Shown here in pieces: positions 44,400 to 64,000 of a stretch of DNA of 64,000 nucleotides (positions are counted from its first letter, which is position 1; each line of letters begins with the position of its first letter). Location: the NCBI RefSeq assembly GCF_000203915.1, contig NC_008392.1:744001-808000 (forward strand), written 5' to 3'. This stretch comes from Burkholderia ambifaria AMMD (GTDB lineage: Bacteria > Pseudomonadota > Gammaproteobacteria > Burkholderiales > Burkholderiaceae). The notes below the pieces were generated by a model. It saw only the letters and a list, made by a program, of their open reading frames with translations. It was not told the DNA's origin and made no database searches. The position numbers and the translations under genes were made by a program.

Positions 44400-44870
44400 T
44401 CAAACCGCCTGACCTTGCAGGTGTTCCGCTTCCTTGCTGCGCGCCGCCGCGGTCGTGGGCATGACGACCGCGGTACCTTCCACCACGATCAGCCCATTCA
44501 CTTCGCATCGGGTTTCCAGCACGACGCGCCGCCGGTTCGCGACGACCTCCTTGACGGTCACGGTCGCACAAACCGTTTCACCGAGCTTCACCGGGCGCCG
44601 GAATTGCAGATCCTGCGACAGATAGATCGAGCCGGGGCCGGGCAGGCGCATGGCAATGGCGGCCGATATCACGGACGCCGACAACATGCCGTGCGCGATG
44701 CGGCCGCCGAATCGTGTGCGACTGGCGTAGGCGTCATCGAGATGCACGGGATTCCGATCGCCGGAGGCGCTCGCGAACAGGAAGATGTCGCGCTCGGATA
44801 GCGTCTTCGTGAAGCTTGCGCTCATGCCGGGTATCAAGTCTTCGAGGTCGTATCCACCTTCGTCGTTCAT
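44400..44870 (-). CDS. MaoC-family (R)-enoyl-CoA hydratase-like protein
   Basis: This 156-residue hot-dog-fold protein has the MaoC signature: FASASGDRNPVHLDDAYA with its catalytic Asp/His pair, followed by RFGGRIAHGMLSASVISA. These proteins hydrate or dehydrate enoyl thioesters. The ATG at 44870 has AGGAG upstream; the longer frame to 44933 would overlap the upstream gene. It is downstream of the triple CMD-like gene on the same strand. In this acyl/polyketide locus it could process a beta-hydroxyacyl or enoyl thioester. Confidence 0.88.
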   Translation of the reverse strand: MNDEGGYDLEDLIPGMSASFTKTLSERDIFLFASASGDRNPVHLDDAYASRTRFGGRIAHGMLSASVISAAIAMRLPGPGSIYLSQDLQFRRPVKLGETVCATVTVKEVVANRRRVVLETRCEVNGLIVVEGTAVVMPTTAAARSKEAEHLQGQAV

Positions 44871-44929
44871 CGTCTGCTCCTGTGTCGTTCGTACTGCGTG
44901 GCGTTGACGGCATCGCGCGCCGTCATCTG

Positions 44930-46021
44930 TCATGCCGCCGCGTTCTCGTGCGTTGCAGCAGCGTGCAAATCCGTCGATGCGAACAACCGGTTTGCCTCTG
45001 CCAGTGCGGATTGCGTGGCGAGCACGCCCGCGTAGGGCAGTGCGCCGGTGATTGTGTTCACGATCTCGTGCCGAGATGCACCCAGCAAGCGCGCGTCGCG
45101 TATATGCATGACGAGCGCTTCGGTATCCGCATTTCGAGCGAGGCAGGTCAGGCAGGCGATGGCCGTCAGGTGCCGTGCCTTCGCGTGTTCGACTGAATCG
45201 ACGCTCGACGTCGACGCACCCGGCTGGTCGAGGTGCCGCGCGAGTTCGGGCGGAATGTCGGCGGCGTGCACCGGCGCTGCGTGCGCATATCGATCACGTT
45301 CCGTCCGGGCTTGTGTCGGGGCGACGTGGGCCTGCTCCGCGGCAGCGAATACGTCGAGCGCGATGCGCGACATGGAAAGTACGAGCGGCCAGCCGATATA
45401 GCCGGTGAGCTGAATCAGTACTTCGGTCAGCTCATGACGCGTCCAGCCGACATGCAGGCAAGCATTCAAGTGCTGCCGTACGGCCGCGTGCTGATTTTCG
45501 AGCGCGATGACGATGCCAAGCGTGGCGAGTTCGCGCTCCTTGGGTGTCAGTGCTTCGAGATGGTGTTGCCGCAGCTCACGCGTGCATGCGACCGCGGATG
45601 AGTAGGGCTCGAACGGATTCGCTGCCTGACCGATAGTGATGCCACGCGCGCGCAGCACCGTCACGACGTGTCGTACGCCGGCCATGGCCACCGGCACGCC
45701 CGCGTACTCGAGCGTCTGCAGGACCGTGGCGAGCACGGCCTCCGGCGCCCAGCCCGTATTCAACATGCCGGCCGCATGGTACTTGAGCGGGGAATCGGCA
45801 TTGCCCATCGTGGTCAGGACCGCGACGGTCACGAGCTCGCGATGCTTCAGCGACAGATTGGGCCGGGCGATGATATCCGCATAAGCGCCCTCGATCAGCA
45901 ATCGCTTGAAGTCGGGGTCGAGCGAATCAAGCGCTGCGCTGAGGTCCGAGAAACCCTCACTGCCGATTGCATGAATGACGGACATGCCAATCTTGTGCCG
46001 GGATATCGTTTTTGCGTGCAT
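44930..46021 (-). CDS. Protein with three carboxymuconolactone-decarboxylase-like repeats
   Basis: This 363-residue protein contains three AhpD/CMD-like segments, each with an acidic/basic helix start and a following H-rich helix: KHRELVTVAVLTTMG ... KYHAAGMLNTG (about 60-110), KERELATLGIVIALEN ... QHLNACLHVG (about 155-205), and KARHLTAIACLTCLA ... MHIRDARLLG (about 280-330). Single or double CMD domains are common; three in one chain are unusual. The CxxC of AhpD-type peroxidases is absent, so an antioxidant role is not indicated. The start at 46021 is chosen inside a slightly longer frame. It shares an operon with the MaoC gene and is divergent from the SDR at 46238. Confidence 0.75.
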   Translation of the reverse strand: MHAKTISRHKIGMSVIHAIGSEGFSDLSAALDSLDPDFKRLLIEGAYADIIARPNLSLKHRELVTVAVLTTMGNADSPLKYHAAGMLNTGWAPEAVLATVLQTLEYAGVPVAMAGVRHVVTVLRARGITIGQAANPFEPYSSAVACTRELRQHHLEALTPKERELATLGIVIALENQHAAVRQHLNACLHVGWTRHELTEVLIQLTGYIGWPLVLSMSRIALDVFAAAEQAHVAPTQARTERDRYAHAAPVHAADIPPELARHLDQPGASTSSVDSVEHAKARHLTAIACLTCLARNADTEALVMHIRDARLLGASRHEIVNTITGALPYAGVLATQSALAEANRLFASTDLHAAATHENAAA

Positions 46022-46237
46022 GGTGCACCAGCCTGGCAATTGCCGAAAATATCGATGGTGCCGATAATATTCGCCCGCCCGGGAAGTAATTCTGAACTTT
46101 TATGAACTGTCATGGATGGACGTTTTTTGACGTTTAGAATCCAGACCAATACGAGAACGCGAACGTTTTCATCCGAGCCGAATGAATCGTTCGATGGCGG
46201 CAGCGATCGGCCATATCAACGTAACCGGGAGAGCGCA

Positions 46238-46996
46238 GTGCTGAAGCTTCAAGACAAGGTGGCCCTCGTCACGGGCGGGAATTCGGGCATCGGCCGGACC
46301 ACGGCGCTGTTGTTTGCACGGGAAGGCGTGCGCGTCGCGATCGCATCGCGCCGCATCGACGAAGGCCTGGCCGTCGTCGAGGAAATTCGCAGCGCTGGCG
46401 GCGACGCGACGTTCGTGAAAACCGATGTTTCCAGGGCCGAGGATTGCGCGAATGCGGTCGCGCAGGCCGTAAAACAATTCGGCAGGCTGGATATTGCTTT
46501 CAATAACGCAGGCGTTGAAGCGTTCGGCAATGCCGTGGCCGATACCGACGAGGCGACCTGGGATTTTGTCGTGGACATCAATCTGAAAGGGGTGTTCCTT
46601 GCGATGAAATATGAAATTCCGGAATTGCTGAAAACCGGGGGCGGATCGATCATCAATATGTCATCGACCTATGGCCTGGTGGCATCGGCATTCGGCGGCT
46701 GCGCATATCACGCGTCGAAGGCAGGCATTCTCGGATTGACGAAAGCGGCCGCGCTCGAATACGCGAAGCAGAAAATCCGCGTCAATGCGATTTGTCCGGC
46801 ATTCGTCGCCACGGCGATGGTCGAAAAATTCCTAGACGAAACCCATATGACCGACCAGATCAAGAGCTTTCATCCGGTCGGCCGCCTGGGTACCGAAGAG
46901 GAGATCGCGCAGGCCGTCGTGTTCCTCGCGAGCGATGCGTCGTCGTTCATGACGGGCACCGCGCTTTCCGTGGACGGCGGCATGACCGCGGCTTGA
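46238..46996 (+). CDS. Short-chain dehydrogenase/reductase, first paralog
   Basis: This 252-residue classical SDR has the NAD(P)-binding motif TGGNSGIG, NNAG, a catalytic Ser in INMSS, and YHASK for the Tyr/Lys pair. It ends with FLASDASSFMTGTALSVDGG. It starts at GTG 46238 with GGGAGAG upstream; an earlier in-frame ATG at 46112 lacks such a signal. It is strikingly similar to the SDR at 53861-54619, with the same length and many identical stretches such as MKYEIPE and VRVNAICPAF-like segments. It probably reduces or oxidises a ketoacyl intermediate of the locus and heads the synthase operon. Confidence 0.92.
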   Translation: MLKLQDKVALVTGGNSGIGRTTALLFAREGVRVAIASRRIDEGLAVVEEIRSAGGDATFVKTDVSRAEDCANAVAQAVKQFGRLDIAFNNAGVEAFGNAVADTDEATWDFVVDINLKGVFLAMKYEIPELLKTGGGSIINMSSTYGLVASAFGGCAYHASKAGILGLTKAAALEYAKQKIRVNAICPAFVATAMVEKFLDETHMTDQIKSFHPVGRLGTEEEIAQAVVFLASDASSFMTGTALSVDGGMTAA

Positions 46997-47070: not shown

Positions 47071-48348
47071 ATGGATTCCGAACTGATGGAAGTGGTGGAG
47101 AAAACGGAGAACGGGCAACCGGAGCTGTTCGACATCGGTTGTGCCATCCCGTTGGGCGTCGTGCCGAGAACGATGCATGCGTGGACGATTCGCCGGGAGA
47201 ACCACGGGGAGCCGCAGCATGCATTCACGAAGGAAATCGTCGACGTGCCGACGCTCGGCCCGAACGACGTGCTGATTCTCGTCATGGCGGCCGGCGTCAA
47301 CTACAACGGCGTGTGGGCCGCCCTCGGCCAGCCGTTTTCCGTGCTCGACCTGCATGACGATCCCTATCACATCACGGGTTCGGACGCGTCCGGCATCGTC
47401 TGGGCCGTCGGCGCGAACGTGAAGAAATGGAAGGTGGGCGACGAGGTGGTCGCGCATTGCTCGCAGGTCGATGGCGACGACGAGGAATGCAACGGCGGCG
47501 ATCCGATGCTGTCGCCGTCACAGCGCATCTGGGGCTACGAAACCACCCACGGTTCGTTCGCGCAATTCGCATGCGTACAGGCCACGCAGCTGATGCCGCG
47601 CCCGAAGCACCTCACGTGGGCCGCAAGCGCGTGCTACACGCTCACGCTCGCCACCGCGTACCGGATGCTGTTCGGCCACAAGCCGCATGTGCTTTCGCCG
47701 GGGCAATCGGTGCTCGTGTGGGGCGCGGCGGGCGGCTTGGGAACGATGGCGATTCAGCTTGCGGCGCTGGCAGGCGCGCGGCCGGTCGCCGTGGTCTCCG
47801 ACGATTCGAAAGCTGAATTCGTCAAGCGCCTTGGCGCGGTGGGCGTGATCAACCGTTCGAATTTTTCATGCTGGGGCGCGCCGCCACCCGTCGATGCAAC
47901 GAACGAATACGCGGCCTATGTCGACGCCGTGAAGAAGTTCGGTAAGGCGATCTGGGACGCGCTCGGCGAAAGGCGCGACGTCGACATGGTGTTCGAACAC
48001 CCGGGCCGCAATACCTTCGCGCCGTCCTGTTACGTCGTGAAGCGCGGCGGCATGGTCGTCTTCTGCGCCGCCACGAGCGGCTACGACCTGACCTGCGATG
48101 CGCGCTACGTGTGGATGCGGCAAAAGCGGATCCAGGGCAGCCACTTCGCGAGTCTCAAGGAAGCCGCGCAGGCAAACCGGCTCGTGATGAGCGGCAAGAT
48201 CGACCCGTGCCTGTCGGAAGTGTTTCCGTGGAACCGCCTGCCGGATGCGCACGCGAAGATTCGCGCGAATCAGCATCTGCCCGGCAACATGGCCGTGCTG
48301 GTGCAGGCCAGCAGTCGCGACGATCTCGACGCGGCGCGTCGCCACTAG
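47071..48348 (+). CDS. ccr: Crotonyl-CoA carboxylase/reductase-like enzyme
   Basis: This 425-residue medium-chain reductase of the CCR family carries out NADPH-dependent reductive carboxylation of 2-enoyl-CoA to alkylmalonyl-CoA. Typical elements are AAGVNYNGVWAALGQP, ITGSDASGIVW, GYETTHGSFAQF, VWGAAGGLGTMAIQLA and VFEHPGRNTF, whose His belongs to the CO2-binding set of carboxylating members. YVWMRQKRIQGSHFA near the end is also typical. It lies directly before a modular synthase, a frequent arrangement for pathways using an unusual extender unit. Whether this one carboxylates or only reduces is not proven. Confidence 0.92.
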   Translation: MDSELMEVVEKTENGQPELFDIGCAIPLGVVPRTMHAWTIRRENHGEPQHAFTKEIVDVPTLGPNDVLILVMAAGVNYNGVWAALGQPFSVLDLHDDPYHITGSDASGIVWAVGANVKKWKVGDEVVAHCSQVDGDDEECNGGDPMLSPSQRIWGYETTHGSFAQFACVQATQLMPRPKHLTWAASACYTLTLATAYRMLFGHKPHVLSPGQSVLVWGAAGGLGTMAIQLAALAGARPVAVVSDDSKAEFVKRLGAVGVINRSNFSCWGAPPPVDATNEYAAYVDAVKKFGKAIWDALGERRDVDMVFEHPGRNTFAPSCYVVKRGGMVVFCAATSGYDLTCDARYVWMRQKRIQGSHFASLKEAAQANRLVMSGKIDPCLSEVFPWNRLPDAHAKIRANQHLPGNMAVLVQASSRDDLDAARRH

Positions 48349-48350
48349 CC

Positions 48351-51300
48351 ATGAAGCATTCTTCTTGCAGCGAGAACGGTATGGACAGGTCAACTACACA
48401 CGCGGAACGGATCGCCATCATCGGCATGTCGTGCCGCTTTCCGGGTGGCGCGTCCTGTGCGTCGAGCTATTGGACGCTTCTGAATTCCGGCCGTACGGCG
48501 ATTCGGGAAACCCCGCGCGAGCGGTTCGATATCGACGCGTTCTACTCGCCGGATCCCGCTGAACCCGGCACCACCTATTCGCGCGTGGCCGGCTACGTCG
48601 ACGATCCGTTCTGCTTCGACCGCGGGCTGTTCCGCACGTCGGCGGCCGAGGCGATCGAGATGGATCCGCAGCAGCGCTGGATGCTGGAACTGGCCTGGGA
48701 AGCGCTCGAGAACGCAGGGTTTGCGCCCGGTCAATTGCGCGGCAAGAATGTCGGCGTGTTCATGACGACCGGCGAAGCCGATTATGGCCGGCGTACCGTG
48801 TGGTCCGGCGATCCCGGAAAAATCACCACGTATTCGAAGCTCGGCAACCTGCGCGCAATGGCGCCCGGGCGCGTCGCGCACATCCTGGGCTTGAGCGGGC
48901 CCGCGATCTTCGTCGACACCACCTGCTCGTCGTCGCTCGTCGCGATCCATCTTGCCGCGCAGAGCCTTCAGGCCGGCGAGTGCGACGTGGCGATCGCGGG
49001 CGGTGTGAACCTGATCCTCGGGCCGGAGGAAACGATCGGCGTCGCGCGACTTCAGGCGATGTCCGTGTCCGGTCAGTGTCGCCCGTTCGACGCGAACGCC
49101 GACGGCTACATTCGCGGCGAAGGCGGTGGCGCGCTCGTCATGAAGCGGCTGGGCGACGCACGCACGCACGGTGATCGTATCGACGCGGTGCTGGTCGGTT
49201 CCGCCGTCAACAGCGACGGCGCGAGCAATGGCCTCACCGCGCCCAACGGCGCGGCGCAGGAAGCCGTGATTCGTCGCGCGATGGCGCGTGCGGGCGTGCG
49301 CCCGGAAGCGGTCGCCTACGTGGAAGCGCATGGCACGGGTACGGCACTGGGAGACCCGATCGAGCTTTCCGCGCTGCGCAACGTGTATGCGCGCGCCGTC
49401 ACGCGCGACAAGCCGATTCTCGTGGGCTCCGTGAAGTCGCAACTCGGACATCTGGAAGGTGCGGCGGGCATGGCGGGTTTCATCAAGGCGATGCTGATTC
49501 TGCGTCATCGCCAGGTGCCCGCACAGGTGAATTTCGCGACGCCGAATCCGCGCTTTCACTGGGAAGGCGCGCAACTCGAGATTCCGCGTGACGGCATGCC
49601 GCTGGGCGACGGCAATGCGTTCGTCGGCGTGAGTGGCTTCGGCATCACCGGCACCAACGTCCATATGATTCTCGCCGAGCCGGACGCGGCGCCGGATACC
49701 GCCGCGCAGGTCGCTCGCGAACGCGTGCTGACGCTGTCGGGACGCTCGCCGCAAGCGCGCCGGCGTGCCGCATCCGCGTGGCGCGCATGGCTCGCTGACA
49801 CCCCCGCGCCGATGCGCGATGCGTGCCACACGGCGAGCGTGCGGCGCGATCATTTCGATCATCGCGTCGCGCTGGTCGGGACGACGAAAGCGGATTTCGT
49901 TGCCGCACTCGATGCCTTTCTCGCCGAGGACCCGACGGGACACTGGCATGCCGGCGAGCAACCGCGCAAGCCGCGTCTCGCGTTTCTCATCCCCGGTCAA
50001 GGGGCATGGCAACCCGGTATCGGGCGCAATCTCTGCGAAGACAACGTCCTGTTCCGCAAACACGCGGATGCGTGTCTGGGCCAGCTCGACGCCGATACGG
50101 CACGCGAGGTGCTCGATGCGATCGTCGGCCGGACCGCCGAAGCGGTGCGCCATCATCCCGGGCAACTCGCGCATTTCGTCGTGTGCTATGCGCTGGCGCG
50201 TACCTGGATGGATCTCGGCGTGCAGCCCGATCTGCTGATCGGGCATTCGTTGGGTGAGCATGTAGCCGCCGTGATCGGCGGCGTGATGTCGGTCGCCGAG
50301 GGCCTGAAGGCGGTCGAAGCGCGCGGCCGCCTGTTCGATACGGCGACGCCGGCAGGCGCGATGCTCGCTGTCGCCGCGAGCGTGGATGAACTCGCCGCGC
50401 GCTTCGCGTTCGGCACGGACTTGTTCGTGGCAGGCATCAACGGGCCGGAGCAAACCGTCGTGAGCGGCACGCAGGCGGCGATCACGCGGGTTCAGGACGC
50501 GATGGTCGCGGCCGGCAAGCGTGTGTCGTTGCTCAAGACCTACGGCACGCCGGGCCATTCGCCGATGCTGCGTTCGATGCGCGAAGCGTTCCGGCAGGCA
50601 CTCGAACCGCTGACGCTGGCGGCGCCCGCGATCCCGATCGTCTCCACACTCACCGGCGCGCTCGCGACAGACGCGATCGCGAGTGTCGAGCATTGGCTGG
50701 ATCTCGTGGAGCAGCCGGTGCGCTTTCATGAAGCGTTGCTCGCGGCGTCCGACGGCAAGACGATCTTCGTCGAAGTGGGGCCCGGCGCGGCGCTGTCGAA
50801 GCTCGCGCGCGCGGCCGCGGGCGGCGACTGGCAATGTGCGGTCTCTTCGCTTGCCGATGGGCCGGACGGCGATGAAGAAACGGAGTCGACCGGCTTCGCG
50901 CATGCGTGCGCACGCCTCTACAGCATCGGGCAGAAGATTGCGTGGCGCAAACTCTACGGCAACGCGCCGCGGCCTGCCGAAGCGCCGGGCTATCCGTTCG
51001 AGCGCGATCGCTTCGAATTGCCGTTCCCGGAGCATGTGCTTGCGGCTTCCGCGCAAGGCGGTACGCAGCATCGGCGCGACATCGCGTCGGGCGAGGTGCC
51101 GCTGCAACACGCTTCGCACGTGGCGGAGATTGGCACTGACATCGCGAGCGTTGACGTTGAGCAACTGCTCGCGACACTCCGCACCATCGCGGCGGCCGTC
51201 ACGCCGGATAGCGTGACGCTGGCCGACGATCTTTCACTCGTCAGTCAGGGCCTCGATTCGTTGGCGTTGACGGAATTGCGCGTGCGCCTGCATCAGCACT

Positions 51301-52265
51301 TCGGCAGGATGCCGCCGATTTCCATGCTCGCACGCGGTGCATCGCTATCGACGCTGGCTCGGTGGTTCGGCGCATCGTCGGGCACTACACCGATTCAGGA
51401 ACCCGTATCGAGCGACACGCAGAAAGCGGCCGATGCACCGGGCGACCACGGATTGCTCGTCACGCTGCGCAATGGCGCGGGGCCGCTCGTCGCACTGGTG
51501 CATCCGGTGGGCGGCAACGTGCTCTGTTATCAGGATCTGGCCAACGGCTGGCCGGGCGATCCGACCATCGTCGCGATTCGCCATCCGTATGCGGACCAGG
51601 ACCGCCCGCCTGCGTATCTGTCGATCGCGCAATTGGCGTCGCGTTATCGCGCGGCGTTGCTTGCCGCACATGGCACGCTGCCCGATGTGCTCGGCGGCTG
51701 GTCGTTCGGCGGCATTGTCGCGCACGAAATGGCGGCGCAGTGGGAAGCGGAGGGCAGGACCGCGCCGCCGCTGGTGATCGTCGATACCCCGCTCCATGAA
51801 GGCGAATTCGCGACGCGGCTGCGCGCGCTTGCCGGCGATTTCGTCAATGAGGACGCCACGCAGGTCGTCGAAGCGTGGCTCGCCGATCCACGCTTCGACA
51901 CGATGCTCGATCGCGACTTCTACCTGGCTGACGTGCGGCGCCGCGCGCATCCCGCCACGTTCGCCCACATCTCGCGGCTGCATGCCGTGAGCGCGGTGGC
52001 GCTCGCGCGTCACCGGCCCCACCAGGTGCGCACGCGAATCGACTACGCGCTCGCCAATCGCAACGCGGGCGGCATGTCCGGTACGCAGGTGACGCAGTAT
52101 CTGCGGCGGCTCACGGGCGGCAGCGTCGCGGTGAGCGTGTTCGACGACGATCACAACTCGATCGTGCGTGAGCCCTCCGCGCGCCGCGTCGCGGCTTTCC
52201 TCGATGGCAGTCCGGACGCCACGCGTGTCGGGTTCGAGCCGCTTGCGCAGGAGACGCCCGCATAG
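48351..52265 (+). CDS. Single-module type I polyketide synthase, KS-AT-ACP-TE
   Basis: This 1304-residue synthase has a KS (about 20-445) with active-site Cys192 in TTCSSSL, His327 in EAHGTGT and His367 in KSQLGHLEG. The AT (about 540-850) has Ser633 in GHSLGEH and, at the specificity region, TPGHSP. The ACP (about 935-1000) has Ser970 in GLDSL. A type I thioesterase (about 1035-1290) has Ser1118 in GWSFGG and a late DDDH. No KR, DH, ER or methyltransferase domain is visible. The AT motif is not HAFH or YASH and resembles the xAGH/xPGH forms reported for larger extender units, which fits the CCR gene upstream. ATG 48351 or 48381 may be the start. Confidence 0.93.
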   Translation: MKHSSCSENGMDRSTTHAERIAIIGMSCRFPGGASCASSYWTLLNSGRTAIRETPRERFDIDAFYSPDPAEPGTTYSRVAGYVDDPFCFDRGLFRTSAAEAIEMDPQQRWMLELAWEALENAGFAPGQLRGKNVGVFMTTGEADYGRRTVWSGDPGKITTYSKLGNLRAMAPGRVAHILGLSGPAIFVDTTCSSSLVAIHLAAQSLQAGECDVAIAGGVNLILGPEETIGVARLQAMSVSGQCRPFDANADGYIRGEGGGALVMKRLGDARTHGDRIDAVLVGSAVNSDGASNGLTAPNGAAQEAVIRRAMARAGVRPEAVAYVEAHGTGTALGDPIELSALRNVYARAVTRDKPILVGSVKSQLGHLEGAAGMAGFIKAMLILRHRQVPAQVNFATPNPRFHWEGAQLEIPRDGMPLGDGNAFVGVSGFGITGTNVHMILAEPDAAPDTAAQVARERVLTLSGRSPQARRRAASAWRAWLADTPAPMRDACHTASVRRDHFDHRVALVGTTKADFVAALDAFLAEDPTGHWHAGEQPRKPRLAFLIPGQGAWQPGIGRNLCEDNVLFRKHADACLGQLDADTAREVLDAIVGRTAEAVRHHPGQLAHFVVCYALARTWMDLGVQPDLLIGHSLGEHVAAVIGGVMSVAEGLKAVEARGRLFDTATPAGAMLAVAASVDELAARFAFGTDLFVAGINGPEQTVVSGTQAAITRVQDAMVAAGKRVSLLKTYGTPGHSPMLRSMREAFRQALEPLTLAAPAIPIVSTLTGALATDAIASVEHWLDLVEQPVRFHEALLAASDGKTIFVEVGPGAALSKLARAAAGGDWQCAVSSLADGPDGDEETESTGFAHACARLYSIGQKIAWRKLYGNAPRPAEAPGYPFERDRFELPFPEHVLAASAQGGTQHRRDIASGEVPLQHASHVAEIGTDIASVDVEQLLATLRTIAAAVTPDSVTLADDLSLVSQGLDSLALTELRVRLHQHFGRMPPISMLARGASLSTLARWFGASSGTTPIQEPVSSDTQKAADAPGDHGLLVTLRNGAGPLVALVHPVGGNVLCYQDLANGWPGDPTIVAIRHPYADQDRPPAYLSIAQLASRYRAALLAAHGTLPDVLGGWSFGGIVAHEMAAQWEAEGRTAPPLVIVDTPLHEGEFATRLRALAGDFVNEDATQVVEAWLADPRFDTMLDRDFYLADVRRRAHPATFAHISRLHAVSAVALARHRPHQVRTRIDYALANRNAGGMSGTQVTQYLRRLTGGSVAVSVFDDDHNSIVREPSARRVAAFLDGSPDATRVGFEPLAQETPA

Positions 52266-52351: not shown

Positions 52352-52681
52352 ATGAGCGACCAACTTCAAGCCGCAACGTTGAACGGTTCCGCGGTGACCG
52401 CCCAGACCATTCTCGGCTGGATCCAGGAATGGGCCGAGGCCAACAATCTGCAGGTGCCGACCGATCTCGAACAGACCTTCGCCGACGCCGGCTTCGATTC
52501 CATGCATTCCGTGGAACTCGCGTTCTTTTTGGAGGAGCGGCTCAAGATCAAGATCGACGATACGGTGCTCTACGATTACCCGACGTTCATCGCGTTGGCC
52601 GAGCATCTCGTGTCGCTCACGCCCACGGGCACAGCCGCGGACACGGAAGCGGGCGAAGGAGCAAGCGCCGGAAACTGGTAA
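52352..52681 (+). CDS. Acyl carrier protein, first paralog
   Basis: This 109-residue free-standing ACP has the phosphopantetheine site in FADAGFDSMHSVELAFFLEE (Ser50). TVLYDYPTF follows, a pattern typical of polyketide or fatty acyl carriers. A Thr/Ala/Glu-rich tail of about 20 residues extends the C-terminus. AGG lies upstream of the ATG. It sits between the synthase and KASIII genes and is similar to the ACP at 60942-61232. It probably carries the starter or intermediate used by the KASIII enzyme. Confidence 0.92.
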   Translation: MSDQLQAATLNGSAVTAQTILGWIQEWAEANNLQVPTDLEQTFADAGFDSMHSVELAFFLEERLKIKIDDTVLYDYPTFIALAEHLVSLTPTGTAADTEAGEGASAGNW

Positions 52682-52750: not shown

Positions 52751-53743
52751 ATGGCGGAAATCACCGGCGCGGGGAGCTGGACCTCGCGCGTCGTCGGCTG
52801 CGGCTCGGCACTGCCCGAGCGGCGCGTGACGAATCATGACATCGCCCGCATGGTCGATACCACGGACGAATGGATCACGCAGCGCACCGGCATCAAGGAG
52901 CGCCGTATCGCGGCGGACGGCGAGCACACGTCCGATCTCGCGATCGGCGCGGCTACCGCCGCGCTGAAGCAGGCCGGCATCAGCGGCGCCGATGTCGATC
53001 TGATCGTGCTTGCCACCTGCACGCCCGATCGCACGATGCCCGCGACGGCCGTGCGCGTGCAGGAGGCGATCGGCATGCAGGGCGGCGTGGCGTTCGACGT
53101 GCAGGCCGTGTGCTCGGGCTTCGTATTCGCGCTGTCGGTCGCGGACAACATGATCCGGCTGGGTCAGGCCCGCACCGCGATCGTGATCGGCGCGGAAACG
53201 ATGTCGCGCATCGTGGACTGGCAGGATCGCAATACCTGCGTGCTGTTCGGCGACGGTGCCGGCGCGGTGGTGCTGCGCGGTGAGCGATCCGACGGCGACA
53301 AGCCGCGCGGCGTCCTCTCCACACACCTGCATTCCGACGGCCGGCATCACGACAAGATTCATACGGACGGCGGCGTCTCGTCGACGCAAAGCGCGGGGAA
53401 GATGCATCTGGAAGGGCGCGAGGTATTCCTGCATGCGGTGGTCAATCTCGCCGAGGCGTCGCAGGAAGCGCTCGCGGCACACGGCCTGACCCGGGACGAT
53501 CTCGACTGGGTCGTGCCGCATCAGGCGAACCAGCGCATCGTGCAGACGCTCGGCATGAAGTTGAACCTGCCGATGGAAAAGGTCGTGCTCACCGTCGGCA
53601 AACACGGCAACACGTCGGCGGCGTCGATTCCGCTCGCGCTCAGCGAGGCGGTGTCCGATGGACGCATCAAGGAGAACGACCTCGTTCTGATGCCGGCGAT
53701 GGGATCGGGCTTTACGTGGGGGGCGGCGTTGATTCGCTGGTAG
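52751..53743 (+). CDS. KASIII (FabH-like) ketoacyl synthase, first paralog
   Basis: This 330-residue KASIII-fold enzyme has its nucleophile Cys121 in QAVCSGF, with His in PHQANQR and Asn in [10 protein letters not shown] completing the triad. GDGAGAVVL is also present. Such enzymes condense an acyl-CoA starter with a malonyl-type ACP, or in secondary pathways transfer acyl groups. It ends the synthase operon and is convergent with the second SDR. It is close in sequence throughout to the KASIII at 61349-62386, suggesting a duplication. Confidence 0.95.
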
Positions 53744-53813
53744 GGATTCACACGAAAAGCCGTCGATAGGTAAGGGATGGGCCGCTGGGCGACCTCCGAC
53801 GCGACGACGAACC

Positions 53814-53840
53814 GCCGCCGGCGCGTGACCGGACGGCGGC
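53814..53840. terminator. Candidate hairpin between convergent units
   Basis: GCCGCCG (53814-53820) pairs with CGGCGGC (53834-53840) around a 13-base loop in the 117-base gap between the KASIII gene and the convergent SDR gene. No T-run follows, so it is a tentative bidirectional terminator. Confidence 0.35.
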
Positions 53841-53860
53841 TCCGACGTTCGGATTCGCTT

Positions 53861-56477: not shown

Positions 56478-56486
56478 GTGCGTGTC

Positions 56487-58667
56487 CTATTCGGTGCGTT
56501 GGCGGCCGACGATCCTGAGCAGATCCTCGTGCAACTGGAACCACACGGTGTGATAGCTATCGATGTTCGCGTCGCTTACCCACTGGATCGCGCCTGCGTC
56601 GATCTTCTCCAGCGCCTCTTGCAAGCGCGACCGGTAATTGTCGATGCGCGGCACCGCCTGCGCCAGACGCACCAGGATGTCGTCGACGCGATCGTGCAAC
56701 CCGCATAGCCTGTCGATCAGCGCAAAGTCGTGCTCGTGGTCCTGATGATCGTTGGCGATGCGCTGTCCGCCGAGCTCCACGGTTTGCCAATCGGTGATCA
56801 ACGCCTTCAACCGGCTGTTGATCCGCTCGAACGCTTCGTAGTGCGCGACGAACGTTTCGTCTGCGCATGCGTCTGCGTATTCGTTTGCATAGTGCGCGTC
56901 GAGCGCGATGCGTGCGAGCGGGCTCAGCACGAATCTGCCGTCGATCTCGATCGCGCGTCCGCCGACCGTGGCGGTGTTCAGCACGGCAAGCGTCTGCTCC
57001 GCGCCCAAGCCGGACAGTGCCTCGATGTCGGCGGGGAGCGCATTCGGCTTCAATGCCAGGCAACGGAGTACCGAATACAAGGCATTCGTGAGTGCGGCGC
57101 GCCGATCGAGCGAATGGGTGGCGGCGCGCTCGTGCAGGTGCCGCGAATGACGCCGTTCGTGCCGGTACAGCGCATCGGCCTGCGGCGTGTCGCGATGGTA
57201 TGCGACCCAGGTCTCGCACAGATAGCGAAAGCGCGCGGAGCTGGCTGCAGGCTCGTGCGTGCGAGCCGCTGCGTTGTAATCCGCCACGCTGAGTATGCCT
57301 CGTGTCGTCAGGTAGCGGTCGGTCTTCGCGGCGAGATGCGATGTACCGCGTCGAAGTCCGCCTGTCGACGCGGCGAAGTCGCGGTTTTCGACAACGGAGC
57401 AGGGCAGCGGTGTCATCATCCGTGCCGGGCGATCGGCATGCTGCATCATCACGAACGGCGACGCCTGCTGGCTCGGCATGGACATCGCGCCCACCAGTTC
57501 GCCGAGCACGCATTCGGCGAATTCGTCATTGAGTAGCGGCCGGAAGCGTTCGGCGCGCGGATCGATCGTAAACCAGTCGTCGGACTCGAAGACGCCGGCA
57601 ACATGCGCGAGATTTCTCATCGCCGAGTTGTAGACGAGCGCGCCGGCGTCGAGCAGCTGGTCGCGCGACCAGCCGGCAATGCGCGTCCAGAGCTTCGTCA
57701 TTGCGTCGCGGATCCGGTCCGTGAGATCACGGAAAATCGACGTCAGTTCGTCGGCCGATGCCATGCCCACCGGTATGAAGCCATCCGACAGCGGATCGGA
57801 CGTGTAGAGCCCGACGCCGGTGATCATGTCGGACGTGAATTCGGGGGTGCTTTCGAAACTGCCCCAATCATCGACGATGTCGAAATGGCAGCCTCGCGTC
57901 GCGAGCGTCACGGTCAGATTGTTGTACGGCATGTTGGCGGCAACACCATCGAGCCACGGCAGCCCACCTTCGCCGAGGTCCATGAAATCGCGCACCAGCA
58001 TCTGCTGCGCATCGTCGATGCGGTACGGCCCCGAGTTGTGCAGGTTGATCCGGCTTTCGCACGCCGCGACGAAACAGTACTGCGAGGCCGTCGCCATGAA
58101 GTTGTGAGCCGCGTCGTGAAGCGCATCGCCGGGTCGGCACGGGTAGAGATCGGCCGCGAACACCTCGAGCGTGCGGTCCGGAAGAATCTGAGAACGGTGC
58201 CCGTATTCTCGGCTGCTCAAGCGGTTGTCGTTGCGGCGCCATGCGAGCTGGAAACGCCGCCAGAAGTCGAGAAGATAGACGACGTCCTGCGCGGCGTCCT
58301 GTGGCCGCAGCATGCCCATCGACAGCAGCCATTCACGGCCGAGCAGGTAATGCGTGGGCAGCAGCCAGCCCATCTGCGCACTCTGGAGCTTGATGCCGAG
58401 ATTGCGCGCACGGTCGGCGATGTCTTCGGCCTTCATGCTCGTCTCGATCTTGCGCAGCAGCGCAGGCATTTTGTAGAAGGCGTTCAGTAATGCAAACAGG
58501 CTGCACGCGGAGAGCGGAAACAGCGACGAGCGCTGCACGGTACGCGTGACCGCCAGCCAGTGCGTTTCGTCGCCCCACTGCTGGATCGCATGGTTGGCCT
58601 CGAGTATTTGCAGATAGGTCAGGTCGGAACCGACGTTGACATGGGAGTGGTCGTGGGGGGCGTTCAT
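56487..58667 (-). CDS. 726-residue protein of unknown function linked to the PPDK-like gene
   Basis: I do not recognise the N-terminal 540 residues, which are mostly helical, rich in Arg, His, Trp and Asp, and contain LHDAAHNFMATASQYC, DMITGVGLYTSDPLSDGF and WTRIAGWSRDQLLDAG. The last 180 residues look like a winged-helix segment (RAALTNALYSVLRCLAL ... GRFVLSPLARIAL), then FERINSRLKALITDWQTVE and a final SYHTVWFQLHEDLLRIVG. From memory, this C-terminal pattern occurs in short proteins near truncated PPDK genes of actinobacteria. No signal peptide or membrane segment is seen. Its start overlaps the swivel gene stop by ATGA, and the PPDK-like gene follows 9 bases later. It may be the missing acceptor or catalytic partner of the phospho-His chain. 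Confidence 0.8.
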   Translation of the reverse strand: MNAPHDHSHVNVGSDLTYLQILEANHAIQQWGDETHWLAVTRTVQRSSLFPLSACSLFALLNAFYKMPALLRKIETSMKAEDIADRARNLGIKLQSAQMGWLLPTHYLLGREWLLSMGMLRPQDAAQDVVYLLDFWRRFQLAWRRNDNRLSSREYGHRSQILPDRTLEVFAADLYPCRPGDALHDAAHNFMATASQYCFVAACESRINLHNSGPYRIDDAQQMLVRDFMDLGEGGLPWLDGVAANMPYNNLTVTLATRGCHFDIVDDWGSFESTPEFTSDMITGVGLYTSDPLSDGFIPVGMASADELTSIFRDLTDRIRDAMTKLWTRIAGWSRDQLLDAGALVYNSAMRNLAHVAGVFESDDWFTIDPRAERFRPLLNDEFAECVLGELVGAMSMPSQQASPFVMMQHADRPARMMTPLPCSVVENRDFAASTGGLRRGTSHLAAKTDRYLTTRGILSVADYNAAARTHEPAASSARFRYLCETWVAYHRDTPQADALYRHERRHSRHLHERAATHSLDRRAALTNALYSVLRCLALKPNALPADIEALSGLGAEQTLAVLNTATVGGRAIEIDGRFVLSPLARIALDAHYANEYADACADETFVAHYEAFERINSRLKALITDWQTVELGGQRIANDHQDHEHDFALIDRLCGLHDRVDDILVRLAQAVPRIDNYRSRLQEALEKIDAGAIQWVSDANIDSYHTVWFQLHEDLLRIVGRQRTE

Positions 58668-59404
58668 CGCGCGAATCTCCAGATGCGGGCCGTGCTTTCT
58701 CGTCCTGCCTGATAGTCCTGCGCGGTTTTCGCGGCCGCGCTCGCTTCGATTTCGATCCGGTCGCCGTCGCGAATGCCGCTGATGCGCGCATTCATCAGGC
58801 AGGGGATGCCGTACTCGCGGGCCAGGATGCCCAGATGCGAGCGAACGGTGCCGCTCGCGCAAATGATGCCCTTGAACCGGTCGATGATGGGTGCTGTGAG
58901 CGTGCAGCCGCTGTCGTCGATGATCGCGATCGTGTCGGGCGGCACACCGTTCTGCATGTACCGGATCACCTGATCGCTGGTGCGGACGTAGCGTGCAACC
59001 CCGTCGACATCTGCCGCATGCCGGACGACGTTGTCGCCGGTGCCGCGCTGCTCGCGGCCATTCGCGTCGATCGATCCCGTGATGGCGTCGTGGTGCTCGA
59101 AACTGAACGCGGATACGTCCACGCCCAGGCCCGTGGCATCCTTGTAGGCATCGGGTCGTTCGCGCAGCGAGACCAGCGAGGTCGACGTAAACCGATAGCC
59201 CGTTGCAAGCGCCTGCTGTTCGATGCGCTCGATATCCTGTCGGGTAATCAACGCATCGGCGCTTCCAAATACGAACGACGTCCAGTCTTCGCCGCTCTGC
59301 GCGAACTGACGGCGCACCAGCGCACGGACCATGCCGTTGACCGCTTCGGCGAGAAGCGATGCAGGCGTCCCTCCGTACCAATTCTTCGCGGGAAATTTTT
59401 TCAT
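58664..59404 (-). CDS. Stand-alone PEP-utiliser-type swivelling domain protein
   Basis: The C-terminal 100 residues of this 246-residue protein match the mobile phospho-His domain of PEP-utilising enzymes: GIICASGTVRSHLGILAREY with His190, then GIPCLMNARISGIRDGD. The first 140 residues are not recognised (KNWYGGTPASLLAEAVNG ... RYVRTSDQVIRYMQNG). ATG at 59404 is preferred to a TTG at 59425. It is the first gene of the minus-strand unit and overlaps the 726-residue gene by ATGA. The unit thus encodes two separate swivel domains, this one and that of the PPDK-like protein. A role as phosphate or acyl shuttle for the novel protein is inference. Confidence 0.8.
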   Translation of the reverse strand: MKKFPAKNWYGGTPASLLAEAVNGMVRALVRRQFAQSGEDWTSFVFGSADALITRQDIERIEQQALATGYRFTSTSLVSLRERPDAYKDATGLGVDVSAFSFEHHDAITGSIDANGREQRGTGDNVVRHAADVDGVARYVRTSDQVIRYMQNGVPPDTIAIIDDSGCTLTAPIIDRFKGIICASGTVRSHLGILAREYGIPCLMNARISGIRDGDRIEIEASAAAKTAQDYQAGRESTARIWRFAR

Positions 59405-59769: not shown

Positions 59770-60732
59770 ATGATATTGCCGGAGGACGTAAGGTTTCATA
59801 CACCCGTCGACGTTTCGTACGACTGGGCGGAGACGAATTTTTTCTCGGTCTATGTGCCGGAGGCCAACATTACGGCCTGGGTGTACACGATAGCGAGGCC
59901 GGGCATAGGCGCCTTCGTGGCCGACGTGTCGATGATCGACAGCCTGGGAAGGACGTCGCTCGAGGCGCTGTATGTCGATTTTCAGCAGCATCTGCCGATG
60001 CCGGAACGCCTTGAGCACTACGAGCTGCCCAATGGCCTCAGCGTTCGAACGATGAACGAGCCGCGCGATTACCAGGTCGACTACGTCGGCGTGGACGGCA
60101 CCGAGCTGCATTGGACCGTGCGGGGCCTGATGGAGCCGTACGACATTCACGACAAGTCGATGGATCCGCTGGCTTGCGCGGATGTCGACACGACCGGCTT
60201 CGGCGCCGCGTACGCGAATCATTTCGACATGACGGTGCACGTCACAGGCACGCTGAAAGTACGCGGACGTATTCATGAAGTGGATTGCGTATCGACCATG
60301 GACCACAGCTGGGGGCCGCGTAACGAGCGCGGGTTGCGCCCGATGGGCTGGGTGAATGCCAGCTTCTCCCGATCGCTCGCGTTCCAGACGATCTGGACCT
60401 TCGAGCCGTTCGCGGACGGTTGGCATCAATTCAAGCTCGCTCACGGCTACGCATTCGTCGACGGGAAAGTGCGCGGGCTCGTATCCGGACGCCAGCGGGC
60501 GGTTCGGCGCGGCGCGTTTCCGTTCAGTTACGAGCAGGTGCTCGTCGATGTCGACGAGGTCGAACACCATTTGCTCGGCGTCCCGGTTGCACAGCATCCA
60601 TGGGCTTGCTACAGCAACACCATGCCCGTGCTGTCGATGATGCGCTGGTTCTACAAAGGCCAGGAGGGATATGGACAGGCTCAGGAGAATTGGCCGCTCG
60701 ACAAGTTTACGGGGCTGGGAATCCGGTCATGA
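59770..60732 (+). CDS. Hydroxyneurosporene-synthase/AttH-like protein
   Basis: This 320-residue soluble protein is made mostly of beta strands. GRIHEVDCVSTMDHSWGPR, with its DHSWGPR motif near residue 180, and the surrounding pattern recall proteins related to hydroxyneurosporene synthase/AttH (lipocalin-like, now several DUFs such as DUF7064/7065). GGAG at 59760-59764 supports the ATG at 59770. Members act on hydrophobic substrates as hydratases or cyclases or have no known activity, so a precise reaction is not assigned. It heads a unit with an ACP, KASIII and an oxidoreductase. Confidence 0.72.
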   Translation: MILPEDVRFHTPVDVSYDWAETNFFSVYVPEANITAWVYTIARPGIGAFVADVSMIDSLGRTSLEALYVDFQQHLPMPERLEHYELPNGLSVRTMNEPRDYQVDYVGVDGTELHWTVRGLMEPYDIHDKSMDPLACADVDTTGFGAAYANHFDMTVHVTGTLKVRGRIHEVDCVSTMDHSWGPRNERGLRPMGWVNASFSRSLAFQTIWTFEPFADGWHQFKLAHGYAFVDGKVRGLVSGRQRAVRRGAFPFSYEQVLVDVDEVEHHLLGVPVAQHPWACYSNTMPVLSMMRWFYKGQEGYGQAQENWPLDKFTGLGIRS

Positions 60733-60941
60733 CGGCAAGGCCGTCGACATGCGCGCAGCTCGCGGAAAACGTTCATGCGAGGGAGCGCCATGCTCGCGCT
60801 TGCGGTACTTTCAGCAGTGACAATCGTTCACTTTCAACGGGACATGCTGAACCTATGATGTTCTCGAAGCAGTCGGAAAGTAACCTCGACATTTCACCGT
60901 GTCTGAACAACATGCTCTTCAACCGTATCGGGAGTAGTGCC

Positions 60942-61232
60942 ATGACGACTCAAACCCTTGCGCCGAATTCGAATGCCGTTCCACAACCGGACCGTGCGTC
61001 GATCACGACCGACGATATCCTCGCCGCGATCAAGACGTGGATGCGCGAACAGAATCTCGGCGAGCCGTCCGATCTGAACGCAACCTTCTCCGATTCCGGT
61101 TTCGACTCGCTGGATTCCGTCCAGCTGTCTTTTTTTCTCCAGGACGAGTTTGGCGTTCAGATCGACGAGACCGTGCTGTACAACTATCCGACGTTTGCAA
61201 CACTGATCGACTACGTGAAGGCCCGGCTCTGA
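60942..61232 (+). CDS. Acyl carrier protein, second paralog
   Basis: This 96-residue ACP has the attachment site Ser56 in FSDSGFDSLDSVQLSFFL and the TVLYNYPTF stretch also found in the ACP at 52352. GGGAG precedes the ATG at 60942. The gap of 209 bases to the previous gene holds no other gene and may contain an extra promoter. Its close resemblance to the first ACP and its place before the second KASIII suggest that an ACP-KASIII pair was duplicated as a unit. Confidence 0.93.
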   Translation: MTTQTLAPNSNAVPQPDRASITTDDILAAIKTWMREQNLGEPSDLNATFSDSGFDSLDSVQLSFFLQDEFGVQIDETVLYNYPTFATLIDYVKARL

Positions 61233-61348: not shown

Positions 61349-62386
61349 ATGATCGAAAGTTCTCCTCAAGATAGTGAGCGCGGTGCGCGTCACACATCTA
61401 CTCGCCTGAACGCACCGTTTCGCTCTTGCGTAATCGGTTGCGGCTCCGCTCTGCCGGAGCGGCGTGTGACGAACGATGAACTGGCACGGACGGTGGATAC
61501 GTCCGACGAGTGGATCGTCAGGCGTTCAGGCATCCGCGAACGAAGGATCGCGGCGGCGCACGAGAAAACCTCGGATTTCGCGATTGCCGCAGCCCGCCGT
61601 GCGCTGGAGCGGGCCGATCTGACCGGCGCCGATCTCGACCTGCTCATCGTCGCGACGACCACCGCCGATCAGACGGTGCCATCGACCGCCGCGCGCGTGC
61701 AGGCCGCGATCGGAATGCATCAAGGCGCCGCTTTCGATGTGAATGCGGCCTGTTCGGGGTTCGTGTACGCCCTTTCGGTGGCAGACAGCATGATGCGGCT
61801 CGGGCAAGTCGGTACCGCTCTGGTGATCGGCGCGGAAACGCTGTCGCGCATCGTCGACTGGACCGAACGTGAGAGTTGCGTACTGTTCGGCGACGGTGCC
61901 GGCGCCGTGATCCTGCGGGCCGAGCCCAGTGACGGCAGCACGAACCAGCGTGGTGTGCTCTCCACGCACCTGCATTCGGACGGACGGCATCAGGACAAGA
62001 TTCGCACGGATGGAGGCGTGTCGTCGACCGGGACGGTCGGCAAGGTGCGCCTCGAAGGGCGCGAGGTGTTCCTGCATGCCGTCATGAATCTCACTGCCGT
62101 GGCGGACGAGGCACTCGCCGCGACCGGCTTGTCGCGCGATGACGTCGACTGGCTGGTCCCGCATCAGGCCAACCAGCGCATCGTCGAAACCGTGGGACAG
62201 CAACTGCACATTCCGGCCGAGAAGACCGTGCTGACCGTCGATCGCCATGCCAATACCTCCGCGGCGTCGATCCCGCTTGCGCTGGATGCGGCGGTGACGG
62301 ACGGACGTGTGAAGGAGGGCGACCTCGTGCTGCTCGCATCGATGGGTGGCGGCTTTACGTGGGGATCGGCATTGCTGCGCTGGTAA
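61349..62386 (+). CDS. KASIII (FabH-like) ketoacyl synthase, second paralog
   Basis: This 345-residue KASIII enzyme has nucleophile Cys135 in NAACSGF, His in PHQANQR and Asn in [10 protein letters not shown]. It is similar along its full length to the KASIII at 52751-53743 but has about 15 extra N-terminal residues. AGGA lies upstream of the ATG. Two KASIII enzymes in one locus could use different starters or form a heteromeric enzyme. It follows the second ACP. Confidence 0.95.
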
Positions 62387-62468
62387 TCGAAGGGCGCAGC
62401 TGACGGCGCCCCGCATGCAAGCCGCGATAGCCGGCCTCATCCCGACCCCGACGAGCAAGGATTCGACC

Positions 62469-64000
62469 ATGACGCTACGCAACGTCTCGCTGGCCGACAA
62501 ATACGCGTTGAGCGAGGATCGCATTTTCATCTCGGGTGCACAGGCCGTCGTACGCATGCTGTTGATGCAGCGCGAGCGCGATCGGCAAGCCGGGCTGAAT
62601 ACGGGCGGTTTCGTGTCCGGCTATCGCGGCTCGCCGCTGGGCGGACTCGACCATCAGCTCTGGAAAGCCGGCAACGCGCTGGCCGCGGCCGATATCGTGT
62701 TCCAGCCGGGCCTCAACGAGGAATTGGCCGCCGCCGCGGTGTGGGGTTCGCAGCAGGCCGAGATGCTCGGTGAAGGCCGACGCGATGGTGTCTTCGCGCT
62801 CTGGTACGGCAAGGGACCGGGCGTCGATCGGGCCGGGGACGTCTTTCGCCACGCCAATCTCGCGGGCTCATCGAAGCATGGCGGTGCGCTGGCGCTGATG
62901 GGCGACGACCATCTCGCCGAATCGTCGAGCGCGGCGCATGCCAGCGAATTTGCTTTCGCGGATGCCATGATTCCGATCCTGAATCCGGCCGGCGTGCAGG
63001 AGATCATCGAATACGGGCTGCTTGGCTACGCGTTATCGCGCTATGCGGGCACCTGGGTGGCCATCAAGTGCGTGAAGGACAACATCGAATCGACCGCGTC
63101 GGTGGACCTGTCGACGAGCCGGATCGATATCGTCGTGCCGGATCTGGTGTTGCCGCCGGGCGGATTGAACATCCGCCGGGAGGTCGATGCGCTCGGGCAG
63201 GAGGAGCGCATGCTCGTCCACAAGCGTCGCGCGGCCGCCGCCTTCGTCCACGCCAATCGCCTGAATCGAATCGTGTTCACGGGCGGCCCGCGCGCCCGGC
63301 TCGGCATCGTCACGACCGGCAAGAGCCATCTGGATACGCTGCAGGCGTTGCGCGATCTCGGAATCGACGCCGCGCGTGCCAACGCGCTGGGCTTGCGGCT
63401 GTTCAAGATCGGCTGCCCGTGGCCGCTGGACCATGCGCACGTCGCCGAGTTCGTGCAGGGGCTCGAATGCGTCGTCGTGGTCGAGGAGAAGCGGGCGCTC
63501 ATCGAAACCCAGCTGCGCGAGCAGCTGTATGGCACACGTCATTGCATGGCGATCGTCGGCAAGCACGACGAGCAGGGGCGAGTGCTGTTTCCGCCGACCG
63601 GTGCGCTGGATTCGAACCTGATCGGCATCGCGTTGGGTGAACGCATTCTGGCGTTGTTCGGGCCGTCGGAAACGATTGCCGCGCGGTTGGCGAGATTGCG
63701 CGACGCGTGGGCGGCGCAGCTTGGCGCCAAGACGCTCGCCGCGCGCGTGCCGCACTTCTGCCCCGGCTGCCCGCACAATTCGTCGACCCGGCTTCCCGAG
63801 GGCTCGATCGCAGGTGGTGGAATCGGTTGCCATTTCATGGCGATGTGGATGGATCGCGGGACCATCGGCTTCACCGCGATGGGCGTGGAGGGTGCGCAGT
63901 GGATCGGGCAGGCCCCGTTCTCGCGGCGCGACCATTTCTTCCAGAATCTCGGGGACGGCACCTACAATCATTCGGGATCGCTGGCGCTGCGATTCGCGCT
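62469..64000 (+). CDS. Indolepyruvate ferredoxin oxidoreductase-like protein, 5' part
   Basis: The reading frame stays open from ATG 62469 to the end of the window (about 510 residues). The protein matches the large fused IorA/IorB-type enzymes of betaproteobacteria, which are about 1150 residues and convert aryl- or branched-chain 2-oxo acids to acyl-CoA. Visible features are FVSGYRGSPLGGLDHQLWKA (N-terminal TPP-enzyme pyrimidine domain), GKGPGVDRAGDVFRHAN, and FCPGCPHNSSTR followed by GIGCHFMAMWMD of the TPP-binding domain. The gene is the fourth of its unit. It could supply an acyl-CoA starter from a keto acid; that role is inference. The 3' end lies outside the window. Confidence 0.9.
   Translation, partial: MTLRNVSLADKYALSEDRIFISGAQAVVRMLLMQRERDRQAGLNTGGFVSGYRGSPLGGLDHQLWKAGNALAAADIVFQPGLNEELAAAAVWGSQQAEMLGEGRRDGVFALWYGKGPGVDRAGDVFRHANLAGSSKHGGALALMGDDHLAESSSAAHASEFAFADAMIPILNPAGVQEIIEYGLLGYALSRYAGTWVAIKCVKDNIESTASVDLSTSRIDIVVPDLVLPPGGLNIRREVDALGQEERMLVHKRRAAAAFVHANRLNRIVFTGGPRARLGIVTTGKSHLDTLQALRDLGIDAARANALGLRLFKIGCPWPLDHAHVAEFVQGLECVVVVEEKRALIETQLREQLYGTRHCMAIVGKHDEQGRVLFPPTGALDSNLIGIALGERILALFGPSETIAARLARLRDAWAAQLGAKTLAARVPHFCPGCPHNSSTRLPEGSIAGGGIGCHFMAMWMDRGTIGFTAMGVEGAQWIGQAPFSRRDHFFQNLGDGTYNHSGSLALRFA

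Follow-up and report, generated by a model that had tools for sequence, protein, structure and literature searches.

We analyzed a 64,000-nucleotide stretch of Burkholderia ambifaria AMMD (contig NC_008392.1, positions 744,001 to 808,000; hereafter the window, whose coordinates are used throughout) and found toward its right end a biosynthetic locus with two parts. A conserved core, containing a one-module polyketide synthase (PKS) and a crotonyl-CoA carboxylase/reductase (CCR), meets at a single gene junction a block of about 19.7 kb that carries a second set of synthase genes and a four-part dikinase of the pyruvate, phosphate dikinase (PPDK) type; the same junction is empty in sister genomes. 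On balance, and with confidence in the whole a little above even, we read the locus as a composite: a one-condensation PKS supplied by CCR, to which a second line with a split PPDK-type small-molecule dikinase was added. The parts are of known kinds; what is new is the gene combination and the four-part dikinase. As the position of the dikinase beside the second synthase set suggests, a catabolic kinase may have been recruited into natural-product synthesis.

A conserved core and a 19.7-kb block

The 7.53-Mb genome is in four contigs, and the replicon bearing the locus is 1.28 Mb long. Gene identities come from open reading frame calling combined with Pfam and NCBIfam, the start positions being our own calls. 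Homologues were drawn from plasmids, GTDB contigs, a set of 199 other genomes, and the 64 other genomes of the same genus. The features of the locus are as follows.

44400..44870, minus: MaoC-like dehydratase (core); PF01575, 2e-23; orthologues 83-87% identical in G020, G021, G026, and B. arboris
44930..45985, minus: triple carboxymuconolactone-decarboxylase-like protein (CMD; core); three PF02627 stretches; orthologues 64-69%
46238..46996, plus: SDR1, FabG-like short-chain dehydrogenase/reductase (SDR; core); PF13561, 6e-68; orthologues 85-87%
47071..48348, plus: CCR (core); TIGR01751, 575 bits against a cut-off of 379; orthologues 91-94%
48381..52265, plus: PKS1 (core), with ketosynthase, acyltransferase, acyl carrier protein, and thioesterase domains (KS-AT-ACP-TE) from Pfam and the motifs of all four; orthologues 79-81%
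52352..52681, plus: ACP1 (core); PF00550, 6e-11
52751..53743, plus: KASIII-1, FabH-like ketoacyl-ACP synthase III (KASIII; core); PRK09352, 440 bits; orthologues 88-91% in three genomes
53744..53860, no strand: convergent junction and left edge of the 19.7-kb block (block 2); end of DNA homology with core-bearing relatives
53861..54619, minus: SDR2 (block 2); PF13561, 4e-67; 67% identical to SDR1 and 68% to the SDR of G057
54705..56477, minus: short PPDK (block 2), 590 amino acids, ATP-grasp with its own swivel; PRK05878, 798 bits; PF01326 and PF00391; phosphohistidine motif GGSTSHAA
56487..58667, minus: 726-amino-acid protein (block 2); no Pfam or NCBIfam match
56487..57092, minus: P726C, C-terminal part of the same protein, MarR-like winged helix-turn-helix (wHTH) and a helical part; AlphaFold2 pLDDT 95.4
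57123..58667, minus: P726N, N-terminal part of the same protein, candidate substrate-binding component; AlphaFold2 pLDDT 87.7
58664..59404, minus: free phosphohistidine swivel protein; PF00391, 1.7e-9
59770..60732, plus: AttH-like protein; DUF7065 above and DUF7064 below the Pfam cut-off
60855..61232, plus: ACP2 (block 2), start uncertain; PF00550, 3e-12
61349..62386, plus: KASIII-2 (block 2); PF08541, 3e-37; 69% identical to KASIII-1
62415..65972 (window holds 62415..64000), plus: indolepyruvate-ferredoxin-oxidoreductase-like protein (IOR), 1,185 amino acids; PRK13029, 1,906 bits
66131..67879, minus: acyl-CoA-oxidase-like protein (ACOX-like), beyond the window
68344..72255, plus: PKS2, second KS-AT-ACP-TE synthase, beyond the window
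72309..73487, plus: Rieske oxygenase, beyond the window

All the genes named in an earlier note on this DNA are open and match their families, the 726-amino-acid protein aside. MaoC and CMD lie on the minus strand, SDR1 through KASIII-1 on the plus strand, SDR2 through the free swivel on the minus strand, and AttH, ACP2, KASIII-2, and IOR on the plus strand. Past the window edge, 9.5 kb more hold the ACOX-like gene on the minus strand and PKS2 and the Rieske gene on the plus strand, the cluster ending at about 73487. Gaps inside strand runs are at most 122 bp, and two gene pairs overlap by 4 bp (the 726-amino-acid protein with the swivel, and Rieske with EAL). The note had described two divergent pairs with a convergent junction, and these are indeed present (divergent points 45985/46238 and 59404/59770; convergent point 53743/53861). 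It took the arrangement as that of a single coordinated cluster; the geometry is as described, but it is at the convergent junction that the core and the added block adjoin. Since Pfam E-values reach 4e-81 and the core gene order recurs in other genomes, chance is not a concern.

The grouping of CCR with the one-module synthase, ACP, KASIII, SDR, MaoC, and CMD is a conserved one: the seven genes are syntenic in 3 of the 64 other genomes of the genus (G020, G021, and G026) and in B. arboris. The KASIII-1 orthologues at 88-91% identity occur in three genomes among the 199 searched, all of the same genus (again G020, G021, and G026), and the other matches listed, apart from KASIII-2 of the window, do not exceed 58%. 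The PKS1 orthologue of B. arboris is 80% identical, and the G026 synthase is identical to that of B. arboris. In all four relatives the KASIII gene is followed directly by an EAL gene and then by a histidine kinase gene. DNA homology with these relatives stops at the KASIII-1 stop codon (with about 10 bp more in G020) and restarts at 73505-73544, 20-60 bp inside the 3' end of the EAL gene. Thus, about 19.7 kb are present here and absent in the core-bearing relatives. Matches to the dikinase protein were found in 5 of the 199 other genomes at E<=1e-3 and matches to AttH in 3, and neither set includes G020, G021, G026, or G057. Because the block is absent from all core-bearing relatives and has a different kinship, we favor its gain here over its loss in the relatives. 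A comparison of the block edges gave a single shared 10-mer, and no integrase or transposase is found among the block genes in the Pfam-annotated locus.

A TIGR01751 CCR stands next to a cis-AT synthase at the window locus, as in CCR-supplied type I PKS systems. CCR adjoins PKS in five distinct loci (the window, G020, G021, G026/B. arboris, and G057), and TPGH occupies the HAFH/YASH site of the AT in all seven synthases compared, two of which are identical; for these reasons CCR likely supplies an alkylmalonyl extender. The available portion of a review of AT motifs is silent on TPGH. One condensation followed by TE release is the likely course, judging by domain content.

The paired sets of the two halves are diverged paralogues, with identities of 55% for PKS, 69% for KASIII, 67% for SDR, and 46% for ACP, the first of these well below the 79-81% of PKS1 with its orthologues. 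PKS2 is closer to a standalone locus found in 1 of the 64 other genus genomes (G057), to which PKS is 62% identical (63% by another tool), SDR2 68%, and the ACOX-like protein 62%. There, SDR, MaoC, PKS, and CCR are divergent to an AMP-ligase-ACP fusion and an ACOX-like protein, with a related histidine kinase (51%) alongside. The G057 cluster thus shares the SDR, PKS, and ACOX kinds with block 2 but has its own CCR, MaoC, and AMP ligase, as well as a transporter-like gene, and neither the dikinase parts nor AttH, IOR, or Rieske found a match in the 40 kb read around it. CCR and MaoC genes are missing from block 2, as if it used those of the core, and this is the main argument that the two halves may cooperate. 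Three further IOR copies in this genome share 48-52% identity with the one in block 2. The ACOX-like protein was found at E<=1e-30 in 1 of 369 genomes of the class, that of the window itself. A plasmid of B. plantarii has a relative at 60%, and in the 31.9 kb read round it no PKS, KAS, or dikinase is annotated. On a Streptomyces violaceusniger plasmid (L134), a relative at 33% adjoins KASIII, an AfsA-type hotdog gene, and SDRs, a setting like that of signaling lactones.

The composition of these synthases also recalls a mycolate-like lipid system, in which they would condense a pair of medium or long acyl chains to give alpha-alkyl-beta-hydroxy acids, CCR would replace acyl-CoA carboxylase, and the kinase set would modify a lipid head. 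Pks13-type systems consist of KS-AT-ACP-TE with a separate reductase, and the G057 locus comes near to their list of parts, as its AMP-ligase-ACP, read as a fatty-acyl-AMP ligase, lies beside KS-AT-ACP-TE, SDR, and CCR. The window locus has KASIII-ACP in place of the AMP ligase that would load the synthase, that ligase being present in G057 only, and CCR in place of acyl-CoA carboxylase. The closest solved relative of PKS1 is CurL (606 bits) rather than Pks13 (about 396 bits for its chains), so the resemblance to Pks13 is one of logic only. We consider a mycolate-like system improbable.

A four-part dikinase and its fusions

The 726-amino-acid protein, which the earlier note had called novel, does lack Pfam and NCBIfam matches, but it is a fusion of two conserved and usually separate proteins. 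In Rhodococcus, Novosphingobium, and G194, its N-terminal part (residues 1-515) and C-terminal part (about 526-726) each have a gene of their own, and genes for a swivel protein and a short PPDK lie alongside; relatives of P726N form a stand-alone gene of about 515 amino acids. A scan of GTDB contigs with an alignment of the N-part confirmed 134 loci, of which the best 80 were used for the counts below. P726C is present in 60 of the 80, joined to the N-part in one (L041) and separate in the rest. All four parts lie inside the fetched stretch in 58 of the 80 loci, including 37 of the 39 loci with a length of 20 kb or more, and 20 of the 22 incomplete loci are shorter than 20 kb. Besides the N+C fusions of the window and L041, 91 loci contain five swivel+N fusions, one swivel+N+C fusion, and two PPDK+C fusions, the N-parts in the swivel fusions being distant (24-29%). 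The two PPDK+C fusions, in which the short PPDK is joined to the MarR-like P726C, are at L024:9861-12209 and L025:8228-10567. In L024, the protein encoded next to the fusion is matched by RedH/PigC and rifampin phosphotransferase models in their C-terminal half; here the ATP part is the same and the substrate part another.

Both swivels of the window retain the histidine, the free swivel as S-H-L-G and the short PPDK as GGSTSHAA. S-H-L occurs at the phosphohistidine site in all 78 selected free swivels (longer than 110 amino acids, identity above 40%), and 54 of the 63 short PPDKs longer than 450 amino acids have GGxTSHAA. The short PPDK had been described as truncated. It matches PRK05878, the model of the short kind, nearly end to end (798 bits against a cut-off of 456; residues 2-583).

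In Pfam, PF01326 and PF00391 were the only matches of this 590-amino-acid protein, none being found to a PEP/pyruvate barrel at E<=0.01. It thus shares ATP-grasp and swivel with pyruvate, phosphate dikinase, differing in the unmatched barrel and in its co-encoded accessory parts. Since no barrel was matched, the database name "pyruvate, phosphate dikinase" is probably wrong as to function. That name is what speaks for a central-metabolism pyruvate or PEP enzyme lying here by chance. Against such an enzyme, the gene travels with the swivel, N-, and C-parts, the barrel is unmatched, and the genome has a stronger PPDK_N protein elsewhere (421 bits, 858-amino-acid frame); we judge it very improbable indeed. 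Proteins labeled "pyruvate, phosphate dikinase," "PEP-utilizing enzyme," "hypothetical protein," and "MarR family transcriptional regulator" seem to belong together as components of a single enzyme set that is conserved and fusible. If the ppdK product of M. tuberculosis is of the short kind, the reading of its role as gluconeogenesis may deserve another look. In the available text of the report concerned, that reading is given for ppdK mutants that were underrepresented in growth on cholesterol (PMC3182942).

A fold search with P726C gave a partial wHTH as its best match (E = 0.019), and a homologue search in viral contigs confirmed no relatives. P726N is likely the substrate-binding part, by analogy with characterized dikinases. 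Among the matches listed in a literature search, none described a PPDK-type set composed in this way, and no characterized cluster with a gene-by-gene match appeared.

Relatives of the dikinase in catabolic-looking operons

The earlier note had expected the swivel, the 726-amino-acid protein, the PPDK-like protein, and the synthase to co-occur across genomes. The first three do so, in the numbers given above, but the synthase does not. At E<=1e-8, none of the 80 stretches matches the PKS, KAS, ACP, IOR, ACOX, Rieske, AttH, MaoC, or CMD proteins of the window, and nine match CCR weakly (at most 77 bits). At 1e-6, the KAS label appears in two loci and the PKS label in three; all five proteins are 380-412 amino acids long and were read as thiolases. 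Conversely, the three core-bearing genomes of the genus have no match to the dikinase protein at E<=1e-3, and the idea that kinase set and synthase form a single conserved unit is not supported.

In the 39 loci of at least 20 kb, matches somewhere in the stretch were found to a biotin carrier (37 loci), biotin carboxylase (36), carboxyltransferase (37), CoA ligase (35), thiolase (35), and phosphatase (9). A tree of 82 N sequences places the window as sister to Croceicoccus ponticola (support 100/97) and then to Sphingobium estronivorans (99/91), a placement made less sure by the long branch of 0.66. The 14.8-kb Croceicoccus stretch has no carboxylase, ligase, or thiolase match and only a phosphatase-like protein (27%); S. 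estronivorans has carboxylase-type genes, judged by gene size and order. Two side observations concern this sample. The 485-amino-acid proteins beside the G194 dikinase were considered as UbiD carboxylases and rejected, as Pfam and NCBIfam assign them to PYC/OADA-type carboxyltransferases. Three metagenome bins titled Klebsiella pneumoniae (L036, L037, and L047) are probably mislabeled, since their N proteins cluster with uncultured Gammaproteobacteria in the tree.

This gene company resembles that of aryl-ketone catabolism. As far as the available portions of the reports go, the Hpe and Acv pathways begin with phosphorylation of 4-hydroxyacetophenone or acetovanillone by a swivel-histidine dikinase (PMC9618137, PMC12167813), and only the phosphorylated form is carboxylated by the biotin enzyme of Hpe (PMC9618137, PMC12167813, PMC13101465). 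The PPDK-type set may perform the same phosphorylation step. In the same partly available sources, the HpeHI, AcvAB, CreHI, and PpsAB dikinases likewise have ATP-grasp and swivel histidine on separate proteins and keep the histidine, as the window set does (PMC12167813, PMC9618137), and HpeHI adjoins HpeCBA much as relatives of the window set adjoin biotin-dependent carboxylase genes. By analogy with HpeHI, as described in the accessible part of its report (PMC12167813), the phosphoryl chemistry proposed in the earlier note is supported. Dikinases of the HpeHI kind turn ATP into AMP as they phosphorylate a phenolic compound. In their layout the ATP-grasp protein has no swivel and its partner combines a swivel with a substrate domain homologous to that of rifampin phosphotransferase, whereas the window has a PPDK-type ATP-grasp protein with its own swivel, an extra free swivel on a protein separate from the N-part, and N- and wHTH parts for which no relation to HpeH-like proteins was detected. 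The biotin carrier, biotin carboxylase, and carboxyltransferase that lie beside the kinase in the Hpe, Acv, and Xcc systems are present in most of the long relatives but absent at the window locus, whose context is that of a PKS. A dikinase in a PKS block without carboxylase genes separates the kinase step from carboxylation and makes the function of the kinase itself testable.

The same catabolic company raises the possibility that the two halves are unrelated neighbors, the dikinase with AttH, IOR, and Rieske being an island for the breakdown of an aromatic or terpenoid compound that came to lie next to a PKS cluster without cooperating with it. Elsewhere the dikinase sits in catabolic-looking operons, core-bearing relatives do without it, and on plasmids AttH (in Methylibium) or AttH and a Rieske-type gene (in Diaphorobacter) lie near dikinase parts. 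On the other side, one and the same block holds ACP2, KASIII-2, PKS2, and SDR2 interspersed among the dikinase genes, SDR2 belongs to the dikinase strand run with a gap of 85 bp, and the block lacks the biotin carboxylase, carboxyltransferase, CoA ligase, and thiolase of catabolic operons. We regard such an island as rather unlikely.

AttH relatives at 37-38% identity adjoin dikinase parts in G116, Paraburkholderia PGU19, and Methylibium (no PPDK being present in the Methylibium stretch read); the Diaphorobacter relative is at 24%, and no N-part was recognized there. Relatives at 60% adjoin genes annotated as phosphotransferases on two Rhodococcus plasmids. Because AttH is linked to two types of kinase, phosphorylated compounds may be what it acts on. 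Loci in which AttH-like genes stand next to dikinase parts or annotated phosphotransferases are L124, L125, L026, L135, L018, and L019.

Proposed pathway and neighboring genes

From gene content we infer the following order of reactions for the composite locus. In the core, KASIII-1, ACP1, SDR1, and MaoC would prepare an acyl chain, and CCR would convert an enoyl-CoA to alkylmalonyl-CoA by reductive carboxylation. PKS1 would join starter and alkylmalonyl extender in a single Claisen condensation, and its TE would release an alpha-branched beta-oxo or beta-hydroxy acid or a lactone. The second line (SDR2, ACP2, KASIII-2, and PKS2) would borrow CCR and MaoC of the core. The IOR-like enzyme, turning a 2-oxoacid into acyl-CoA, is a plausible and, in this scheme, likely source of its starter, with the ACOX-like desaturase and the Rieske oxygenase as putative tailoring enzymes. 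The short PPDK would use ATP to phosphorylate a swivel histidine, from which the phosphate would pass, probably via the free swivel, to a hydroxyl or enol held by P726N; phosphorylation of such a group is fairly likely as chemistry. Action of the AttH-like protein on the resulting phosphate ester is speculative.

A more specific version has the four-part, two-swivel dikinase recruited from aryl-ketone catabolism into polyketide biosynthesis, with a relay from ATP through the short-PPDK histidine and the free-swivel histidine to a hydroxyl or enol on the polyketide or its starter. The AttH-like protein would then use the phosphate as a leaving group, the two forming a kinase-lyase pair for dehydration or cyclization. 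We hold this version to be unlikely.

Several observations weigh against the composite explanation. Absence of the block from relatives does not by itself settle gain here against loss there. Only one genome was found to hold both halves, so the arguments for their cooperation are that they adjoin and that block 2 lacks CCR and MaoC. The TPGH motif of the AT, neither HAFH nor YASH, fits an unusual extender without proving one. The GGxTSHAA pattern was not found in 9 of the 63 short PPDKs above 450 amino acids, and no phosphatase was recognized in block 2. The P726N model, a confident one, has no match to a solved fold at E<=0.001, which does not show a new fold, and profile comparison with three HpeH-like proteins gave no match, in a test whose swivel control was itself weak (E = 0.0008, probability 25%); the substrate-binding role is for that reason assigned by analogy.

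On the left, the cluster is flanked by genes for an SDF symporter and a two-domain Asp/Glu racemase (41480-44214). The pair is found on the opposite side in G026 and B. arboris, about 10 kb past the histidine kinase, which indicates that the flank was rearranged. On the right follow the EAL protein and a protein with a CHASE2 domain, interpreted as a histidine kinase (73484-77080; L006:17484-18284 and L006:18969 onward). Relatives of this kinase also adjoin the core in G020, G021, G026, and B. arboris (69-82%) and the G057 locus (51%), so that the sensor kinase may control this cluster family. At 4-9 kb to the right of the cluster (77172-82630, L006/L007) are two glycosyltransferase-like genes, one tested with Pfam and the other identified by reading, and a gene for a condensation-like protein, also identified by reading; these might decorate a product.

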